The notes beneath the pieces were generated by a model. It had not been told where the DNA came from, ran no database searches, and saw only the letters and a program-made list of their open reading frames with translations. From Candidatus Uhrbacteria bacterium RIFOXYB12_FULL_58_10 (lineage in GTDB: Bacteria > Patescibacteriota > Patescibacteriia > UBA9934 > GWF2-40-263), in assembly GCA_943354165.1 (NCBI GenBank), contig CALRBH010000009.1, positions 1 to 35,180 on the forward strand: a stretch of DNA of 35,180 nucleotides. Direction: 5' to 3'. The translations under genes and the position numbers were made by a program. Numbering within the stretch: the stretch's first letter is position 1; every line of letters starts with the position of its first letter. Below are positions 4,833-15,828 of this stretch, piece by piece.

Positions 4833-5615
4833 ATGACCATCCTTCAAGCCGCTGTTCTCGGGATCGTACAGGGAATGACGGAGTTTCTTCCGGTTTCAAG
4901 CTCCGGTCACCTTATCCTCGTCCCTGCCTTGTTTGGATGGTCGGAGCATCCCGTGGCGTTTAACGCGGCGATTCATCTTGGGACGCTACTCGCCGTGTTC
5001 ATCGCCTTGCGCGAGGACATTGTGCGGATCCTGCGAGGACTTTTTAAAAATGACGAGTGGGGGAAGCTGGGTTGGATGATCGCGATTGCCACGATCCCCA
5101 CGCTGTTCGTTGGTTTTCTGATTAGTGAAGTGCTGACCATTGATTTCAACACTCCAGAAATCATTGCAGGCACGCTCGCATTCTGGGGCGTTGCTCTCTA
5201 TCTTGTCGATCGATATTCCGCCACGACCGTGCAAGACATGCGTGCGACCGGTTGGCGGCGCGTGATCATCATCGGATGTGCGCAGGTTCTCTCGCTCATT
5301 CCCGGAACGTCAAGAAGCGGTGTGACAATTACGGCCGGACGCGCGCTTGGGCTTTCCCGCGAAACCGCGGCGCGATTCTCCTTCCTCCTTGGCATCCCAG
5401 CGATCACGGCTGCGGGATTCCTTTCGATGGCGCAGATTTACAAAGGCTCGGCGCCGGTTGAGACGCTTCCGCTCATGGTCGGCATCGCCGCATCATTCGC
5501 TTCCGGACTTTTTGCGATCTGCATGCTTCTGAAGCTGATGAAATCGACTTCGTACGCCCCGTTTGCGGTCTATCGCATCCTTCTTGCCATGGTGGTCGTA
5601 ACTGTGCTTCTCTAG
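4833..5615 (+). CDS. uppP: Undecaprenyl-diphosphatase UppP (BacA)
   Basis: 260-aa integral membrane phosphatase that turns undecaprenyl diphosphate into the monophosphate lipid carrier used for peptidoglycan and surface polysaccharides. The family motifs are intact: EFLPVSSSGHL near residues 17-27 and PGTSRSGVTI in the second half, both contributing to the active site. Several hydrophobic helices follow and the length is normal. It starts 6 nt after the ATPase gene, so it sits at the end of that operon, though it is functionally separate. It matches the polysaccharide locus at the other end of the window, which needs the same lipid carrier. Confidence 0.97.
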   Translation: MTILQAAVLGIVQGMTEFLPVSSSGHLILVPALFGWSEHPVAFNAAIHLGTLLAVFIALREDIVRILRGLFKNDEWGKLGWMIAIATIPTLFVGFLISEVLTIDFNTPEIIAGTLAFWGVALYLVDRYSATTVQDMRATGWRRVIIIGCAQVLSLIPGTSRSGVTITAGRALGLSRETAARFSFLLGIPAITAAGFLSMAQIYKGSAPVETLPLMVGIAASFASGLFAICMLLKLMKSTSYAPFAVYRILLAMVVVTVLL

Positions 5616-5634
5616 AAGTAATCAACGTCTACAC

Positions 5635-6455
5635 ATGAAATATTTACTCTCTTTGCGGCGTTCGCAGCCGCGGGAAGGATCACCCAAGCTCCACTTACGG
5701 TTTCAGATATATTTAATGCAGATAATACTCTTACGGTAGAATAGGGCAGCGTGGCAGTTTCGCGGGCAGAAGGGACGAAAGAAACCGTCACGACCGCTAC
5801 GACCGTCGCTCCTGGAGACAATCTTACGGTTTCCAATGACGGATTCGCATCGATTCAGTGGTTCGATGATTCCGTGAGTCGGTTGAAAGCCGGAACCATC
5901 ATTCGCATAACGGCGACCGATTACAATCCGGACGACATCAGCCAGACCAAGGTAAACTTTGAAGTTGTGACCGGAACCGTGTGGTCTAAAGTGATGGATC
6001 TCGTGAATGGAGAGTCCTCGTTCTCTGCACAAGGTGGAGGCGTGGTCTCTGTCGTTCGCGGAACGGTTTTTAACATGACTATTACGACCGATGCGGTGCT
6101 TGTTGATGCCATTGAACACGCAACGTTTGTAAAGATGGAAGGCGAGGAAACCCGTGATATCGCCCAGGGGGAAAGCGCCTAGCTTCCTCCAAAAAACCAT
6201 CCAGAACGGAAACTCGGCATGAAGGCGATGCGTTTGTCTTCGACCTTAAAAGCGAAGGTAGATTCTGCCTGGTTCAAGAGTAATGGCGCGGAAGATACGC
6301 GTGATGCCGGAAGGATTCGTGAAAAGTTCCTTCCGCGCATGGAAGCGTTAGAGAAGAGTGCAAATCCGGATGTTCGTTTGAAATTATTGCTTCTGAAACG
6401 GATCGGCGAAGAATTTATCATGGAGGCGCCTAAAGATTTCTCCTGCTCCCCTTGA
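5635..6455 (+). pseudogene. FecR-domain protein, broken by frameshift and two TAG stops
   Basis: The frame around 5637-6182 encodes a FecR-like beta-rich domain: LTVSDIFNADNTLTVE before a TAG at 5742-5744, then GSVAVSRAEGTKETVT and GGVVSVVRGTVFNMTI. The same frame holds a hydrophobic stretch (TLFAAFAAAG) that could be a signal peptide, but the only nearby ATG (5635) is in another frame. A second TAG (6180-6182) cuts off a helical tail (KAMRLSSTLKAKVDSAWF onward) that stays in frame to 6455. Both stops could come from CAG by one C-to-T change. An intact product might start at GTG 5751 (143 aa), but the signal peptide would be lost. The adjacent CHASE2-cyclase gene is also broken, which supports decay of the whole locus. 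Confidence 0.75.
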
Positions 6456-6485
6456 AATCAAGACGATTTCACCTACGCGTTAATT

Positions 6486-7390
6486 ATGGCAACTCTTGGC
6501 CTGTTTCGCCGCCTGAACCGCCGTGCACGACGTGTCGCGGCGTTTTGGCTGCTTGCGAGCCTTATATTCGGCAGCCTTCTTGCGGGTGCGGCTTACACCG
6601 GACGGCTTGCTTCGCTCAACCAGACGCTTTCGAATTATCTTTACGTTCGCCCAGGAGCCGTTCCTCCGGGGAACGTGGTGATCGTCGCGATGGATGACAA
6701 AACGCTTGATGCGCGTCCGACGTCCGAGCTTGGGACGCTCCGTTTGCCCAAGGCTGATTATGCCCGCGTGATTTCGGCGGTTCGATCAGCCGGTGCGGCG
6801 GCTATTGGTGTAGACATCATCCTCTCCGAATCTTCCGATCCGGCGGACGTCGCTGCCTTGCAGGACGTGCTTGCGGCGGTGGACGATACGGTGCTTGCCG
6901 CACGTCCGGGGGATTCGGCAATCGCAGCTCTTTTGCCACTGAAGGCGCTAGGGGCTTCGCGGATCGGAAGCGTACTGTTTGCTCCGAACATTGATGGTGT
7001 CGTGCGCCGGGAGCGTCTCATGTTTTCTGACGAAAATGTGCGCCTTGCGTTTCCTCTCGCCGTACTCGACGCGTATTTCGCCCAACCATCAAATCCGGAC
7101 CGTCGTGAAGGGGAAGAATAAGCATGTGCGGATTTTTGAGCTGCTTGGCGAACGCGGAACGCTGAGCAAATCGTCACGCAAGACGGTCGTATCCTTATAA
7201 GGAAGGGCTCGAGGCGTACCGGGCGGCCCGGTTCGAGGACGCGGAGCGATTCTTCCTGGAAGCGCTGCGGATTACGCCAGATGACGGGTCGTCAACGGTG
7301 TTTTTGGATCGATGCGCCTCGCTGCGCGCGCAGGGGATTGTTACGGGTTGGGACGAGGTGTATCGTGCCAAGGAGAATAGGATAGATTGA
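6486..7390 (+). pseudogene. CHASE2-adenylate cyclase gene with deleted catalytic core
   Basis: The 5' part (6486-about 7100) encodes an N-terminal transmembrane helix and a CHASE2 sensor domain, with VVIVAMDDKTL, KADYARVISAVRSAG and AIGVDIILSE. Normally three membrane helices and a class III cyclase domain follow. Here, around 7100, the sequence jumps in another frame to what looks like the very end of a cyclase (VVKGKNKHVRIFELLGERG). After one more frame change near 7193 it gives the usual cyclase C-terminal tail (YKEGLEAYRAARFEDAERFF, then GWDEVYRAKE) to a stop at 7388. The GGDEF/cyclase core is missing. This points to an internal deletion plus frameshifts. A 211-aa CHASE2 fragment (6486-7121) could still be made. 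Confidence 0.8.
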
Positions 7391-7465
7391 CATTCTCCCC
7401 GGATTTCGTTACCTTCCAATGGTTCCATTTCGGAACTATTGCGCTACCTGCGCATTGAGGTTCGT

Positions 7466-7984
7466 ATGACCCAGCCAGATGTTCCTTCCTCGCCCGCTCA
7501 AGTACCTGGCACAGACGTCCCATCTCCTCCGTCGCAGTCGACTGTGAAGATGAGCGTCGCTGTGAACCAGCCGCCAGTGATCCAGTTCACGCGTGGCCAA
7601 CTCAGCTTCGGCCTCTTCATATTCGTGGGGACGATTGCGCTCCTGGCGTTGGGGTTCTGGAACAAGGTCGAAGCGTTTCGGCCCGCGCCTGAGGTGCGCA
7701 TCGAGCGCGTCCTCATGATCTCGGATGACGAGTGTTCCATCATTATGGGCGACTTCGACTCGCTCTGCGCCGCGTACACGGAGCTCAGGGCTGATCTTAA
7801 GAAAGAGCAGGCCGAAGTTCTATACCTGCGTATGGAGAACATAATGGCGCTGGCCGAATTGCGCCGGCATAAGATCGCGTTCCCTTCGTTCTATCAGGAG
7901 CCGATGCAGTTCCGCGTGCTCCACGAGCCGATGGATATGGACACGGCCGAGACGATCTTTGACCTGAAGGGAGGTACGCAGTAA
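7466..7984 (+). CDS. Single-pass membrane protein of unknown function
   Basis: 172 aa from ATG 7466, preceded by GAGG at a suitable distance; an upstream in-frame start at 7439 lacks such a site. The layout is a Pro/Ser/Thr-rich cytoplasmic-looking N terminus (about 1-45), one transmembrane helix (about 53-72, LFIFVGTIALLALGFW), then a soluble region with a helical, coiled-coil-prone segment (YTELRADLKKEQAEVLYLRM). No known domain was recognised. It opens an islet of three small unrecognised genes whose sequence reads as richer in GC than the flanks. Confidence 0.65.
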   Translation: MTQPDVPSSPAQVPGTDVPSPPSQSTVKMSVAVNQPPVIQFTRGQLSFGLFIFVGTIALLALGFWNKVEAFRPAPEVRIERVLMISDDECSIIMGDFDSLCAAYTELRADLKKEQAEVLYLRMENIMALAELRRHKIAFPSFYQEPMQFRVLHEPMDMDTAETIFDLKGGTQ

Positions 7985-8018
7985 AATATCGGCACTCAAC
8001 CCGCATCTGGAGTGCCTC

Positions 8019-8267
8019 ATGATCGTGACTTCGTTCCTTTCTCCACCCAACACCATCACCATTTCACCCGGCCCAACGAACGCCGTGCCCATGCCTCGTG
8101 TGCCGCCGCGTTCCATCTGCGAGGGAAGCTGGCGTCCTCCGCAGGAAGCCGAATGCGACCGACTCGCGCGGATCACCGGAGAGCCCTGGTGGAAGTTCCG
8201 CCAGCCTGGCACCGGCAAGGGTGTCAGCAAGGTCGTTCGCGTCATGCGAGCCAACGCCCGGCGATAG
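8019..8267 (+). CDS. Small hypothetical protein
   Basis: 82-aa reading frame beginning at ATG 8019 with GGAG nine bases upstream; a GGCACTC/GAGTGCC dyad precedes the start. The N-terminal half is rich in Pro, Ser and Thr; the C-terminal half is basic and could form a helix (KGVSKVVRVMRANARR). I do not recognise a family. A clean terminator 23 nt after the stop argues that it is a real transcription unit. Confidence 0.45.
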   Translation: MIVTSFLSPPNTITISPGPTNAVPMPRVPPRSICEGSWRPPQEAECDRLARITGEPWWKFRQPGTGKGVSKVVRVMRANARR

Positions 8268-8289
8268 CCCAGCTGCTGCAGCGTTCAAT

Positions 8290-8320
8290 AGCCCTCGGTT
8301 CTACGAGGGCTCTTCTTTTT
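8290..8320 (+). terminator. Rho-independent terminator
   Basis: 8-bp stem AGCCCTCG/CGAGGGCT with a 6-nt loop, followed by CTTCTTTTT. It ends the transcript of the 82-aa gene. Confidence 0.85.
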
Positions 8321-8410
8321 CTGTGAGCCCGCACCCATTGACATTTTGGCTGAACTCACCAGACTCCGGCCACCCATGGGTTCAGGAACCCATCATAACA
8401 AGGAGAAAAC

Positions 8411-8770
8411 ATGGGTCGTTTGAGTGTGTTCATTCCCATTGTCGCGCTGGCAAGCCTCACGGCTGCCTGTCCGACACCAACCGTCAACAACATCACCAAC
8501 GTCGCCGCGCCGGAGGATCCTCCTCCGGACGACGACACGCCGCCACCCGCCGAGGTGGTCTGTGAGCCACGCCTGCAACCGGGCACGGCCGACCTCACCG
8601 GGTCGACCGCCTGGTCCATGGACGAGCTCAAGACCACGTCCACCCTGGGCGCCCCTGCGCTTCTGCGCACGGTCGCGAACAGCCCTAGCCGGCTCACAAG
8701 AGCCACCTCGACGATAGCGGTCTCCCTCGAGACCGCTTTTTCTATTGAAAAAATGGCTGGATATTGCTAG
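8411..8770 (+). CDS. Putative lipoprotein, reading frame runs through a terminator
   Basis: 119-aa frame with a strong AAGGAG Shine-Dalgarno 5 nt before the ATG. Residues 1-20 look like a lipoprotein signal: hydrophobic core, then lipobox LTAAC with the Cys at position 20. An acidic, Pro-rich stretch follows (PPPDDDTPPPAE), typical of a surface linker. The frame has no stop before the intrinsic terminator at 8716-8743 and closes only at 8770, so the last residues would be encoded beyond the expected transcript end. A TAG in the +1 frame (8715-8717) abuts the hairpin, which suggests a recent frameshift. No function is recognised. Confidence 0.55.
   Translation: MGRLSVFIPIVALASLTAACPTPTVNNITNVAAPEDPPPDDDTPPPAEVVCEPRLQPGTADLTGSTAWSMDELKTTSTLGAPALLRTVANSPSRLTRATSTIAVSLETAFSIEKMAGYC
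8716..8743 (+). terminator. Rho-independent terminator
   Basis: 9-bp perfect stem AGCGGTCTC/GAGACCGCT with a 4-nt loop, followed by TTTTCT. It separates the lipoprotein gene from mnmA but lies inside the open frame of the former. Confidence 0.85.
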
Positions 8771-8781
8771 GATCTTTCGTT

Positions 8782-9885
8782 ATGTCAGAACGCAAGCCAA
8801 AAGTCCTTGTGGGCATGAGCGGCGGGGTGGATTCGTCCGTCACCGCGGCGTTGCTATTGGAACAAGGGTACGAAGTGATTGGTGCCTTCATGAAGAACTG
8901 GTCGGGGACGGTGGAGGGACCTCGATGTGTGGACGAAGACAAGGTCGGTGAGGAGTTTGCCGAGTGCGGATGGAAGGAAGAGCGGCGTGACGCGATGCGT
9001 GTGGCGGCTAAGCTCGGGATTCCGTTTCTCACCTTCGACTTTGAAAAGGAATATCGCGCGCTTGTGGTGGAAGAGATGTTCCAGGAGTTCGAAGCAGGCC
9101 GCACGCCGAATCCGGATATTTTGTGCAATCGGTACATCAAGTTCGACTTGTTCATGCGCGAAGCAGACAAGCTCGGTTGCGATTTCGTCGCAACAGGTCA
9201 TTACGCTCGGACGTCCCAACTACCAAATGCCAACTACCAAATACTCCGCTCTGTCGACGAACTCAAGGATCAAACCTACTTCCTCTGGGCCATCGATCCA
9301 AAGGTTCTCCCACGAGTTCTGTTTCCGGTCGGCAGCATGACAAAGCCTGAAGTGCGCGAGAAGGCGCGTGAGCTTGGACTCAGCACGGCGGACAAGAAGG
9401 ATTCGGTCGGGATCTGTTTCGTCGGGGAAGTGAACATGAAAGAGTTCCTGCAGGCGCGCATTCCGAAGAGTCCTGGGAAGATTGTCACCACGGAAGGGAA
9501 GGAAGTTGGTGAGCACGAGGGACTTTCATTCTATACGATTGGCCAGCGCGATGGAGTTGTCACGGCTGGTGGAGGGATTCCGTATTACGTCGTCGAAAAA
9601 CGCCGGTCGACGAACGAGCTCATCGTCTCAAGCAATTTCCACCCGTTGTTGTTTCGATCGACATTGAGCGCAGCTCGCCCTAATTGGTTCCATCGTCCTG
9701 ATGAGGGCGCGAAGGTTCGTGCTCGCATTCGCCATCGCGGCGACCTGATGCCTGCGACGATTCAGCACACCGCGAACGGATTTACCCTTGCATTTGACGG
9801 TCAGGCTCGTGCGGTGACCCCTGGACAATCGGTTGTGATTTATGATGGGGAAGCGGTGCTGGGCGGAGGAATCATTCAGGAATAA
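8782..9885 (+). CDS. mnmA: tRNA-specific 2-thiouridylase MnmA
   Basis: 367-aa enzyme that adds sulphur to U34 of Lys, Glu and Gln tRNAs, using ATP and a persulfide. The ATP-binding loop GMSGGVDSSV is at residues 11-20. The first catalytic cysteine is in PDILCNRYIKF and the second in VGICFVGE. A C-terminal beta-barrel-like region follows with GQRDGVV and AVTPGQSVVIYDG. Length is standard. The start at 8782 fits the family; a TTG-initiated extension to 8764 is unlikely. A 14-nt tandem duplication at 9217-9244 encodes part of the loop after GHYAR. The A-run of the opposing gene's terminator touches the stop codon. Confidence 0.97.
   Translation: MSERKPKVLVGMSGGVDSSVTAALLLEQGYEVIGAFMKNWSGTVEGPRCVDEDKVGEEFAECGWKEERRDAMRVAAKLGIPFLTFDFEKEYRALVVEEMFQEFEAGRTPNPDILCNRYIKFDLFMREADKLGCDFVATGHYARTSQLPNANYQILRSVDELKDQTYFLWAIDPKVLPRVLFPVGSMTKPEVREKARELGLSTADKKDSVGICFVGEVNMKEFLQARIPKSPGKIVTTEGKEVGEHEGLSFYTIGQRDGVVTAGGGIPYYVVEKRRSTNELIVSSNFHPLLFRSTLSAARPNWFHRPDEGAKVRARIRHRGDLMPATIQHTANGFTLAFDGQARAVTPGQSVVIYDGEAVLGGGIIQE
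9217..9244 (+). repeat. Short tandem duplication inside mnmA
   Basis: CAACTACCAAAT occurs twice with a 14-nt period (9217 and 9231). It encodes the Gln/Asn/Tyr-containing loop between GHYAR and the LRSVDELKDQ motif of MnmA. Because the flanking motifs line up, the frame is preserved. It resembles the short-word repeats found elsewhere in this window but may be coincidental. Confidence 0.5.
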
Positions 9886-12480: not shown

Positions 12481-12698
12481 AGTCATCCAAAAAGGCCAGA
12501 ATAGGATGAGTGGTCACTCCGATATCCCCGACGCTTCCGTGCGGGAGTCATCCAAAAAGGCCAGAATAGGATGAGTGGTCACTCCGGACAGTATACACTC
12601 CTCGCGCATCGGCAAGTCATCCAAAAAGGCCAGAATAGGATGAGTGGTCACAAAAGCCAAGCTCCCGTGCAGAGGGCAGCAGTCATCCAAAAAGGCCA
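12481..12698 (+). CRISPR. Short CRISPR array, three spacers, degenerate last repeat
   Basis: Three identical 37-nt direct repeats lie at 12481-12517, 12546-12582 and 12615-12651. Each starts AGTCATCCAAAAAGGCCAG and ends GGATGAGTGGTCAC. A fourth copy at 12681-12698 matches only the first 18 nt. Spacers are unrelated and 28, 32 and 29 nt long (12518-12545, 12583-12614, 12652-12680); the first two both begin TCCG. The repeat can fold through TCATCC/GGATGA (6 bp, 15-nt loop). Rightward transcription is inferred from the degenerate repeat at the right (trailer) end and a rightward terminator 20 nt further on. I found no match of the spacers elsewhere in the window by eye. Confidence 0.93.
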
Positions 12699-12718
12699 AT
12701 TCCTTTTCCCTCTTCTTG

Positions 12719-13564: not shown

Positions 13565-13843
13565 ATGGGTGAAAAGAAACTCAAGCGGCCGCGGCCGGCC
13601 AAGTGCCGGATACTGCCGCCAGATGCGCCGTCGCTTGTCCAAATGGTGACCGGGCTCACGAGGAAGATCTGCCGCAAGGCCGATCATATGAAGCAGGAGC
13701 CGCATGACGGACGGGCAAGGCGTGCCTATCAGATGCTGTTCGATCAGCGAGCAGCGGCCTTTGCCCGGTTGGGCGAAATGAAAGGCGAATGCGCGCAAAC
13801 CTTGGCCGATGAACTCGGCCTCAACACGGAGGTGTCACAATGA
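13565..13843 (+). CDS. Small basic protein coupled to the Cas12-like effector
   Basis: 92 aa from ATG 13565, with GAGG 7 nt upstream, directly behind the promoter and dyad; an upstream in-frame start (13415) lies before the promoter and is rejected. The sequence starts with a Lys/Arg/Pro-rich stretch (MGEKKLKRPRPAKCR) and then predicts two or three helices (VTGLTRKICRKADHM, RRAYQMLFDQRAAAFARLGE). Its TGA overlaps the effector ATG (ATGA), so translation is coupled. I do not recognise a family. It might be a nucleic-acid-binding partner, a detached N-terminal piece of the effector, or a regulator. Position and coupling make a role in the same complex likely, but that is inference. Confidence 0.75.
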   Translation: MGEKKLKRPRPAKCRILPPDAPSLVQMVTGLTRKICRKADHMKQEPHDGRARRAYQMLFDQRAAAFARLGEMKGECAQTLADELGLNTEVSQ

Positions 13844-15828
13844 GCTGGTACCAACAGCCCGCCTCCGGTGAGGAGCGGGGGTTCGTCGTTGTGGAAGCAA
13901 AGATCGGCGCCTCTCGCGCAGAAAAAGCTCTACCTGCGTGGAAGCAAAAGGTGTTTTCGCGGGTGAGTGTGCTTGTGAGCGTCGCGCTCGCGGCCACGAT
14001 GGAGGCACTCAAACGTGCCCTCACAGTGACCATGATCCGCGCAGACGAGTTGGAAACGGCTGTGCTCGCGGATCCTTGGGAGCCTAAAGGGCAATGGTTC
14101 GTGGATGCGGTCCGACTGCAATTCATGGTTGATGCGGAAGGTGCAGAGCGCATCCGTGTCTTACTCGCCCAGCCTGAGAAACCGTATGGGTACACGAATG
14201 CTTATCGCTTTGTGCGTATCTCAGATACGCCCACTTCGCATGGCAGATTCGTCGTCCAGGCGGAAATCGCCCGTGGTGAATGGAAGGATAGGAAGGGAAA
14301 GGACGGCGTCGTACGCGTTCACGGACTCTCTGTGATTGAGTCGACGACCGGCCTTCAGCGTATGTTGACCTCCTACCTGAAACCGATTGAACTTGAAGCT
14401 GTCCCACGCGCCCTGCGTGATGGGGTGGCTCAAGAGGCAGCCCAACAGATGACCAGTTATATCGGCCAGCTCGAGAGTGCTAAGGTGAAGGGCGACACGG
14501 CATATCCCACTGTCGAGGACCGCGAACCTGTGCGGCGCCGTACGGCATTTGAGACCGCCGTCGATCATCTACGGTGCGACGTGCGACCACTACAGTATGC
14601 GAAAGCTCGGGATCTCGATCCTGGCGCGTATGCTGAAGACGACAAGCGCGGCAACCGGCTCGTGGCAAACGATGAACGATGGCTTGCTGTCGTCCGTTCG
14701 CCGGACCCGCGTCCCATCCCCCTGTTCTTTGTGGACGGAGGACAGGTACGGCTCGACCGGCTGGAAACTGTGTTCGATGCAGGTGTCTCAAAAGTGAACC
14801 GGCACCGTGGCAGGCTCGAACCGTCTGAGCAGGTTCGCTCAAGTCGTCCACAGGCCGTTCAGAAGAAAGGGTTCACCTGTCTTCGATCCATATACGCACT
14901 TCTCCCCCTTCTCGATTCCGACGATGCAGACCTACGGGCGATTCTTACGGATCGCGATGCAGGTTTGAACGAAACGAGCGCAGGGAGATTAGCGAAACAT
15001 GAGCGTATGTCCGTTCCGCTGCAGGACGGTCCTGCAAAGGTCCGAAAACACGACGTCCGCGTGCCGCTCTCGTTTGATGCCGCACGATTCGGGAAGATCC
15101 TCAACCGGGGCGATCTTGAAATCGCCTGGGCGAAGGTCGTCTGCTCACAAGGTGAATGGTATTTGCAGCTGACCGTGCGTGTGCCGTTTGCGAAACCAGT
15201 CGGCGTGCGCAAGGTGCTCGGTGTAACCTTTGGCCTCGATGCGATCGCAAGTTGGTGCCTCACAGGCGAGGATGGGAAGGTCATCGAGACCGGCTCCATC
15301 GCGCCAAACCCCCAGATCGTGAGGTACCTCAATGACAAGCTGACGGTGGAGTGGGATCAGGCGAAGGAGCGATGGGTCGGTGGCACGCGGTTTGCGCCGG
15401 CACTCGAGCATATCACCCACCAGGTGAGCAACAAACTCGTAGAGCTTGCGAACTCATTTGGCGCGGTCCTTGCGGTCCATGATGTGCAGTGGGTTAAGAA
15501 GTCCGGGAAGGATGGAACACTCAACCGACTCTTCACAGCATGGAACTACGGCCAGCTGCGTCGGTACCTCGAGTACAAGTCGCCGCTCGCCGGACTCGGT
15601 GTCCCAGCCTGGTGCGGGGACTACTTGGTCAATATGACCTGCCCTGTGTGTGGAGCGATTCGTGGTAAGAACGAGACCCCAGAGAAAGCGAAGACCTGGC
15701 GGACAAACGGGACTCTCCATTGCCGCGCCTGCGGATACGAGGGGACCGTGACGGGAGCAGAAAACGCTCATCGCGTGGCTTCACATGGTCTCTCCGTGTG
15801 GAAGAAAGCGTGGGCAAAGGAAGCTTGA
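13840..15828 (+). CDS. Cas12/TnpB-like effector with substituted RuvC active site
   Basis: 662 aa, GGAGG 8-9 nt before the ATG. The C-terminal part is a TnpB/Cas12-type RuvC domain. Motif I reads VLGVTFGLDAIASW (458-471), with Thr463 at the usual Asp. Motif II is HQVSNKLVELANSFGAVLAV then HDV, with His547 at the usual Glu. LRRYLEYKSPLAGLGVPAW leads to a zinc ribbon (C601, C604, C628, C631), and motif III is TGAENAHRVASHG with Ala640 at the usual Asp. All three catalytic acids are thus replaced while the fold motifs remain. The N-terminal ~450 aa resemble nothing I can name and would hold the WED/REC regions. Size is like Cas12k, Cas12m or Cas12f, but no tns genes are present. The expected role is crRNA-guided DNA binding without cutting. 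Adjacent cas1 and CRISPR support a type V assignment; the subtype is unresolved. Confidence 0.85.
   Translation: MSWYQQPASGEERGFVVVEAKIGASRAEKALPAWKQKVFSRVSVLVSVALAATMEALKRALTVTMIRADELETAVLADPWEPKGQWFVDAVRLQFMVDAEGAERIRVLLAQPEKPYGYTNAYRFVRISDTPTSHGRFVVQAEIARGEWKDRKGKDGVVRVHGLSVIESTTGLQRMLTSYLKPIELEAVPRALRDGVAQEAAQQMTSYIGQLESAKVKGDTAYPTVEDREPVRRRTAFETAVDHLRCDVRPLQYAKARDLDPGAYAEDDKRGNRLVANDERWLAVVRSPDPRPIPLFFVDGGQVRLDRLETVFDAGVSKVNRHRGRLEPSEQVRSSRPQAVQKKGFTCLRSIYALLPLLDSDDADLRAILTDRDAGLNETSAGRLAKHERMSVPLQDGPAKVRKHDVRVPLSFDAARFGKILNRGDLEIAWAKVVCSQGEWYLQLTVRVPFAKPVGVRKVLGVTFGLDAIASWCLTGEDGKVIETGSIAPNPQIVRYLNDKLTVEWDQAKERWVGGTRFAPALEHITHQVSNKLVELANSFGAVLAVHDVQWVKKSGKDGTLNRLFTAWNYGQLRRYLEYKSPLAGLGVPAWCGDYLVNMTCPVCGAIRGKNETPEKAKTWRTNGTLHCRACGYEGTVTGAENAHRVASHGLSVWKKAWAKEA

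Follow-up and report, generated by a model that had tools for sequence, protein, structure and literature searches.

The window, as we call the whole 35,180-nucleotide stretch of DNA analysed here, is one entire contig (C9) of a draft genome of 852.5 kb in 24 contigs, 98.4% complete. This genome is the sole representative of its genus here (n=1), and its family, represented by 43 genomes, includes Candidatus Uhrbacteria. Our comparisons are with G019 and G001 (Ca. Uhrbacteria bacterium RIFCSPHIGHO2_01_FULL_63_20, MGDT01000007), which both belong to the sister genus. Between two intact flanking genes, the window carries the remains of a FecR-like gene followed by those of a CHASE2-cyclase gene, with these features:

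4833..5615, + strand: UppP (undecaprenyl-diphosphatase-like, named by resemblance), intact 5' flank; 260-aa open frame, 61-64% identical to G001 and G019
5622..6455, + strand: FecR-like remnant; frame-3 homology, tblastn E~1e-44 to the 504-codon open frame of G019
5742..5744, + strand: in-frame TAG in the FecR-like remnant
6180..6182, + strand: second in-frame TAG in the FecR-like remnant
6486..7121, + strand: CHASE2 piece; open frame of 211 codons from ATG in frame 3, with an N-terminal membrane helix and the first half of CHASE2
7095..7110, + strand: deletion junction, with the join at about 7100-7106; ~397 codons absent relative to G019
~7102..7191, + strand: cyclase-domain end piece; frame 1, ~30 codons, 63% identical to G019 residues 770-799
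7191..7196, + strand: second frame change, a small indel
7196..7390, + strand: C-terminal TPR segment; frame 2 to TGA, ~61 residues, 64% identical to G019 residues 801-861
8764..9885, + strand: MnmA, intact 3' flank and conserved neighbour; PF03054 E=3e-74

Two open frames lie between the cyclase remnant and MnmA, one at 7439-7984 (181 aa, one apparent membrane helix) and one at 8411-8770 (119 aa, lipoprotein-like); both are without a Pfam match and are missing from the sister-genus loci. Elsewhere in the window, a 662-aa protein at 13840-15828 has Cas12f as its best PADLOC match (E=1e-39), and upstream of it, at 12481-12700, lie four short direct repeats at a spacing of 65-69 bases. Together, gene and repeats resemble a type V CRISPR locus in minimal form, here in a patescibacterial genome.

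The gene order in both G019 and G001 is SecF, an unknown 544-aa protein, a TraD-like ATPase, UppP, FecR-like, CHASE2-cyclase and MnmA. The neighbours on both sides match those in the window, and the intact FecR-like and cyclase pair sits between them, in the orthologous position UppP - FecR-like - cyclase - MnmA. The intact cyclase open frames are of 861 codons in G019 and 714 codons in G001, both being stop-to-stop counts that exceed the protein lengths. Both contain CHASE2 (E~1e-44) and Guanylate_cyc (E~1e-23), and TPR is matched weakly. In the alignment, the relatives' proteins carry FSDIAGFT, DK(F/Y)IGDAVMAFWNAP and DYTVIGDAVNL..RLE, which we take to be motifs of catalytic adenylate cyclases, and the metal-binding Asp, Lys, Asn and Arg motifs are present. 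Judged by these sequences, the relatives' genes (L012 8419-10497 and L013 8067-10142) would encode an apparently catalytic CHASE2 cyclase, in genomes where we find no cNMP-binding domain. The intact FecR-like open frames, 504 codons in G019 and 511 codons in G001, lie directly upstream of the cyclase.

A tblastn search with the 861-codon open frame of G019 finds three collinear pieces in the window, corresponding to residues 184-373, 770-799 and 801-861, the last of them at 7196-7378. When the whole genome is searched with the G019 orthologue, the pieces have E=1e-37, 1e-3 and 3e-20 and are adjacent and in order, so the match is not due to chance. The stop-to-stop frames agree with this layout, with one frame open around 6486-7121, a frame-1 stretch running to 7200, and a frame-2 stretch at 7166-7390. 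In the CHASE2 piece, homology covers about 200 residues and ends near 7101, from where out-of-frame codons continue to a TAA. The CHASE2 domain is recognisable as the initial annotation had proposed (PF05226, E=5e-19), but only about its first half survives, profile positions 11-142 of 257, and the window copy does not have a complete extracellular domain. The cyclase-domain end piece covers the end of the catalytic domain and the residues just behind it, and the C-terminal segment matches TPR_2 with E=7.5e-4, which is weaker than the curated cut-off.

The window sequence across the join is CGTCGTGAAGGGGAAGAA. Its left side corresponds to the NRREEG region of the relatives and its right side to their AVKGK region, which puts the loss at about 397 codons (~1.2 kb), from residue 374 to residue 770 of the open frame in G019. 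Gone with it are the remainder of CHASE2, almost the whole catalytic domain, and three membrane helices that we identified in the sequences of the relatives. The collinear homology is thus interrupted by one large deletion and two frame changes. The initial annotation had described, from the window sequence, a CHASE2 N-terminus and a cyclase C-terminal end joined in different frames near 7100, a further frame change near 7193 and a loss of several hundred codons, and it had proposed an alignment with intact CHASE2-cyclase genes of related genomes. That alignment, carried out with G019 and G001, recovers the deletion and the frame changes; the tblastn pieces place the join at 7100-7106 and the second change at 7191-7196, and the missing codons number about 397 relative to G019. 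Its description of the gene as a CHASE2-cyclase with the membrane and catalytic core deleted is borne out by the intact orthologues that occupy this position in both relatives. The short string CGTGAA is common to both sides of the junction and, the ancestral sequence itself not being known, suggests that the large deletion may have arisen between microhomologies.

Neither the intact orthologue nor PF00211, used as queries, finds the missing cyclase core anywhere else in the genome; PF00211 has no match in the whole genome, and with it a class III cyclase catalytic domain is absent. We reject programmed frameshifting or a split gene, since about 397 codons are absent and not merely out of frame. 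No cyclase can be produced from this locus.

The FecR-like gene, whose damage from about 5622 onwards the initial annotation did not mention, is also broken. The remnant is orthologous to L012 6915-8426 and adjoins the cyclase remnant as the intact gene adjoins the intact cyclase. In the alignment, its start region is damaged and most of its C-terminal half is gone. Its PF04773 match is weak and below the cut-off, and the G001 match is above it.

We conclude that the locus is, very probably, a decaying two-gene unit, FecR-like and CHASE2-cyclase, in which both genes have been disabled by deletions, stops and a frameshift. The ancestor would have had a FecR-like protein, probably secreted, and downstream of it a CHASE2 receptor adenylate cyclase, probably cAMP-making, with a C-terminal TPR. 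The ~1.2-kb deletion has cost the cyclase gene the rest of CHASE2, its three membrane helices and almost the whole catalytic domain, and the gene also carries the small frameshift; the FecR-like gene has two in-frame stops and lacks most of its C-terminal half. Relaxed selection on the sensor in the ancestor of this genome may account for these changes. These lesions are seen in a single genome of the genus, which is a draft assembly of 24 contigs.

That draft state, together with a junction that falls on a short match, would fit an assembly artefact, with an intact gene in the organism from which the assembler dropped about 1.2 kb. The shared string, however, is of ~6-13 nt, which is short for an assembly-graph collapse, and the flanking genes are uninterrupted. 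The separate frameshift, the two stops and the second deletion in the adjoining gene are independent lesions in two genes, and therefore we consider an assembly error improbable. The other reading to weigh comes from the CHASE2 piece itself, which still has a start codon and 211 open codons and could be translated, and whose codon-position base composition is still gene-like. A short CHASE2 protein (6486-7121) might thus have been kept and be working, for instance as an enzyme-less membrane-anchored binding protein, a sensor or a decoy. But such a protein would end within the CHASE2 domain, would be without the three membrane helices and any output domain, and would have a broken FecR-like gene for a partner, and similarity at the level observed is also expected under recent decay. 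We regard a retained function of this kind as very improbable.

For the decaying pair, the identities of the surviving pieces bear on the age of the decay. Over the CHASE2 part, the window is 45% identical to G019 and 44% to G001 (about 44-46%), and G019 and G001 are 51% identical to each other; in the same order, the TPR tail gives 64%, 39% and 43%. Taken together, what survives of the cyclase shares 39-64% identity with the relatives, which share 40-51% with each other over the same segments. Since the remnants are thus about as close to the relatives as these are to each other, they seem to have been constrained for most of the branch, and on these identities the decay of the cyclase looks recent relative to the divergence of the two genera. 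The last FecR stretch looks more eroded, with 34% and 20% identity and a GC content of 48% vs 55% for the window, and therefore the FecR-like gene may have decayed before the cyclase.

CHASE2 is present in 8 of the 43 genomes of the family, in three genera, and we find none in the other searched genomes of the order outside the family. The copies in the third genus are more distant, 26-29% identical over CHASE2, and are at other loci. In a sample of the class, CHASE2 occurs in 44 of 381 genomes; stops within the matched stretch are seen in this genome alone. The UppP-MnmA interval (window 5616-8763; L013, L148-L155) is a variable slot across the family: five genomes, G001 among them, have an HD-type protein there, G006 has a response-regulator-like open frame, G007 has, by eye, a transposase-like open frame beside the HD gene, and in G002 and G020 the interval is empty. 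In eight other genomes of the family, this interval has no FecR or cyclase remnants, only other genes or nothing, and a family-wide trend of decay at this spot is rejected on that ground. On the simplest history, the pair would already have occupied this place when the two genera diverged, and would then have decayed in this genus; its absence from the interval in other genera could reflect either a gain at the split or repeated clean losses.

The initial annotation had also seen here a snapshot of the loss of cAMP-type signalling in the lineage. It is correct that no Guanylate_cyc domain is left elsewhere in the 98%-complete genome, by profile and orthologue searches. But the cNMP_binding domain (PF00027) is absent even from the relatives, both G019 and G001, as it is from this genome (G000), and the lineage in question is one genome. 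The Crp-type HTH (PF13545) is absent from G000 and G001, and G019 has one short match just over the cut-off. We thus find no cNMP-binding effector in this genome. Since there is no cNMP_binding domain here nor in the relatives with an intact cyclase, a working ancestral cAMP pathway is not demonstrated, and "loss of cAMP signalling" goes too far as a description of the locus.

CHASE2 adenylate cyclases beside genes for FecR-domain proteins have been described in Campylobacterota, with horizontal transfer (PMC9239204). The likeness to those clusters (PMC9239204) is in the FecR-like gene beside a CHASE2 cyclase with a TPR element, and in the full CHASE2 and Guanylate_cyc architecture of G019 and G001. 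Unlike in those clusters (PMC9239204), the window pair is broken in both genes and has no catalytic domain left, we identify no cAMP phosphodiesterase gene beside the locus, and the TPR belongs to the cyclase and is not a separate gene. In a Burkholderia operon of FecR and a CHASE2 histidine kinase (PMC5192318), a CHASE2 sensor gene likewise adjoins a FecR-domain protein gene, but there the output is a histidine kinase and not a cyclase. The orthologous FecR-like and cyclase pair of G001 and G019 has the same locus and order and the identities given above; its copies are uninterrupted, whereas both genes of the window are pseudogenes. Our literature searches on adenylate cyclase pseudogenes in Patescibacteria and on pseudogenes in Uhrbacteria found nothing, and on Patescibacteria and cyclic AMP nothing relevant.

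Systems of this kind are therefore already known, and the window holds one of them in the form of two pseudogenes. In most respects this is routine pseudogenisation, real but ordinary gene decay. It is also a well-bracketed case of the decay of a sensor-cyclase unit in genome-reduced Patescibacteria, with intact relatives at the same locus, and it raises the puzzle of relatives that retain an apparently catalytic cyclase without a recognisable cNMP-binding effector.
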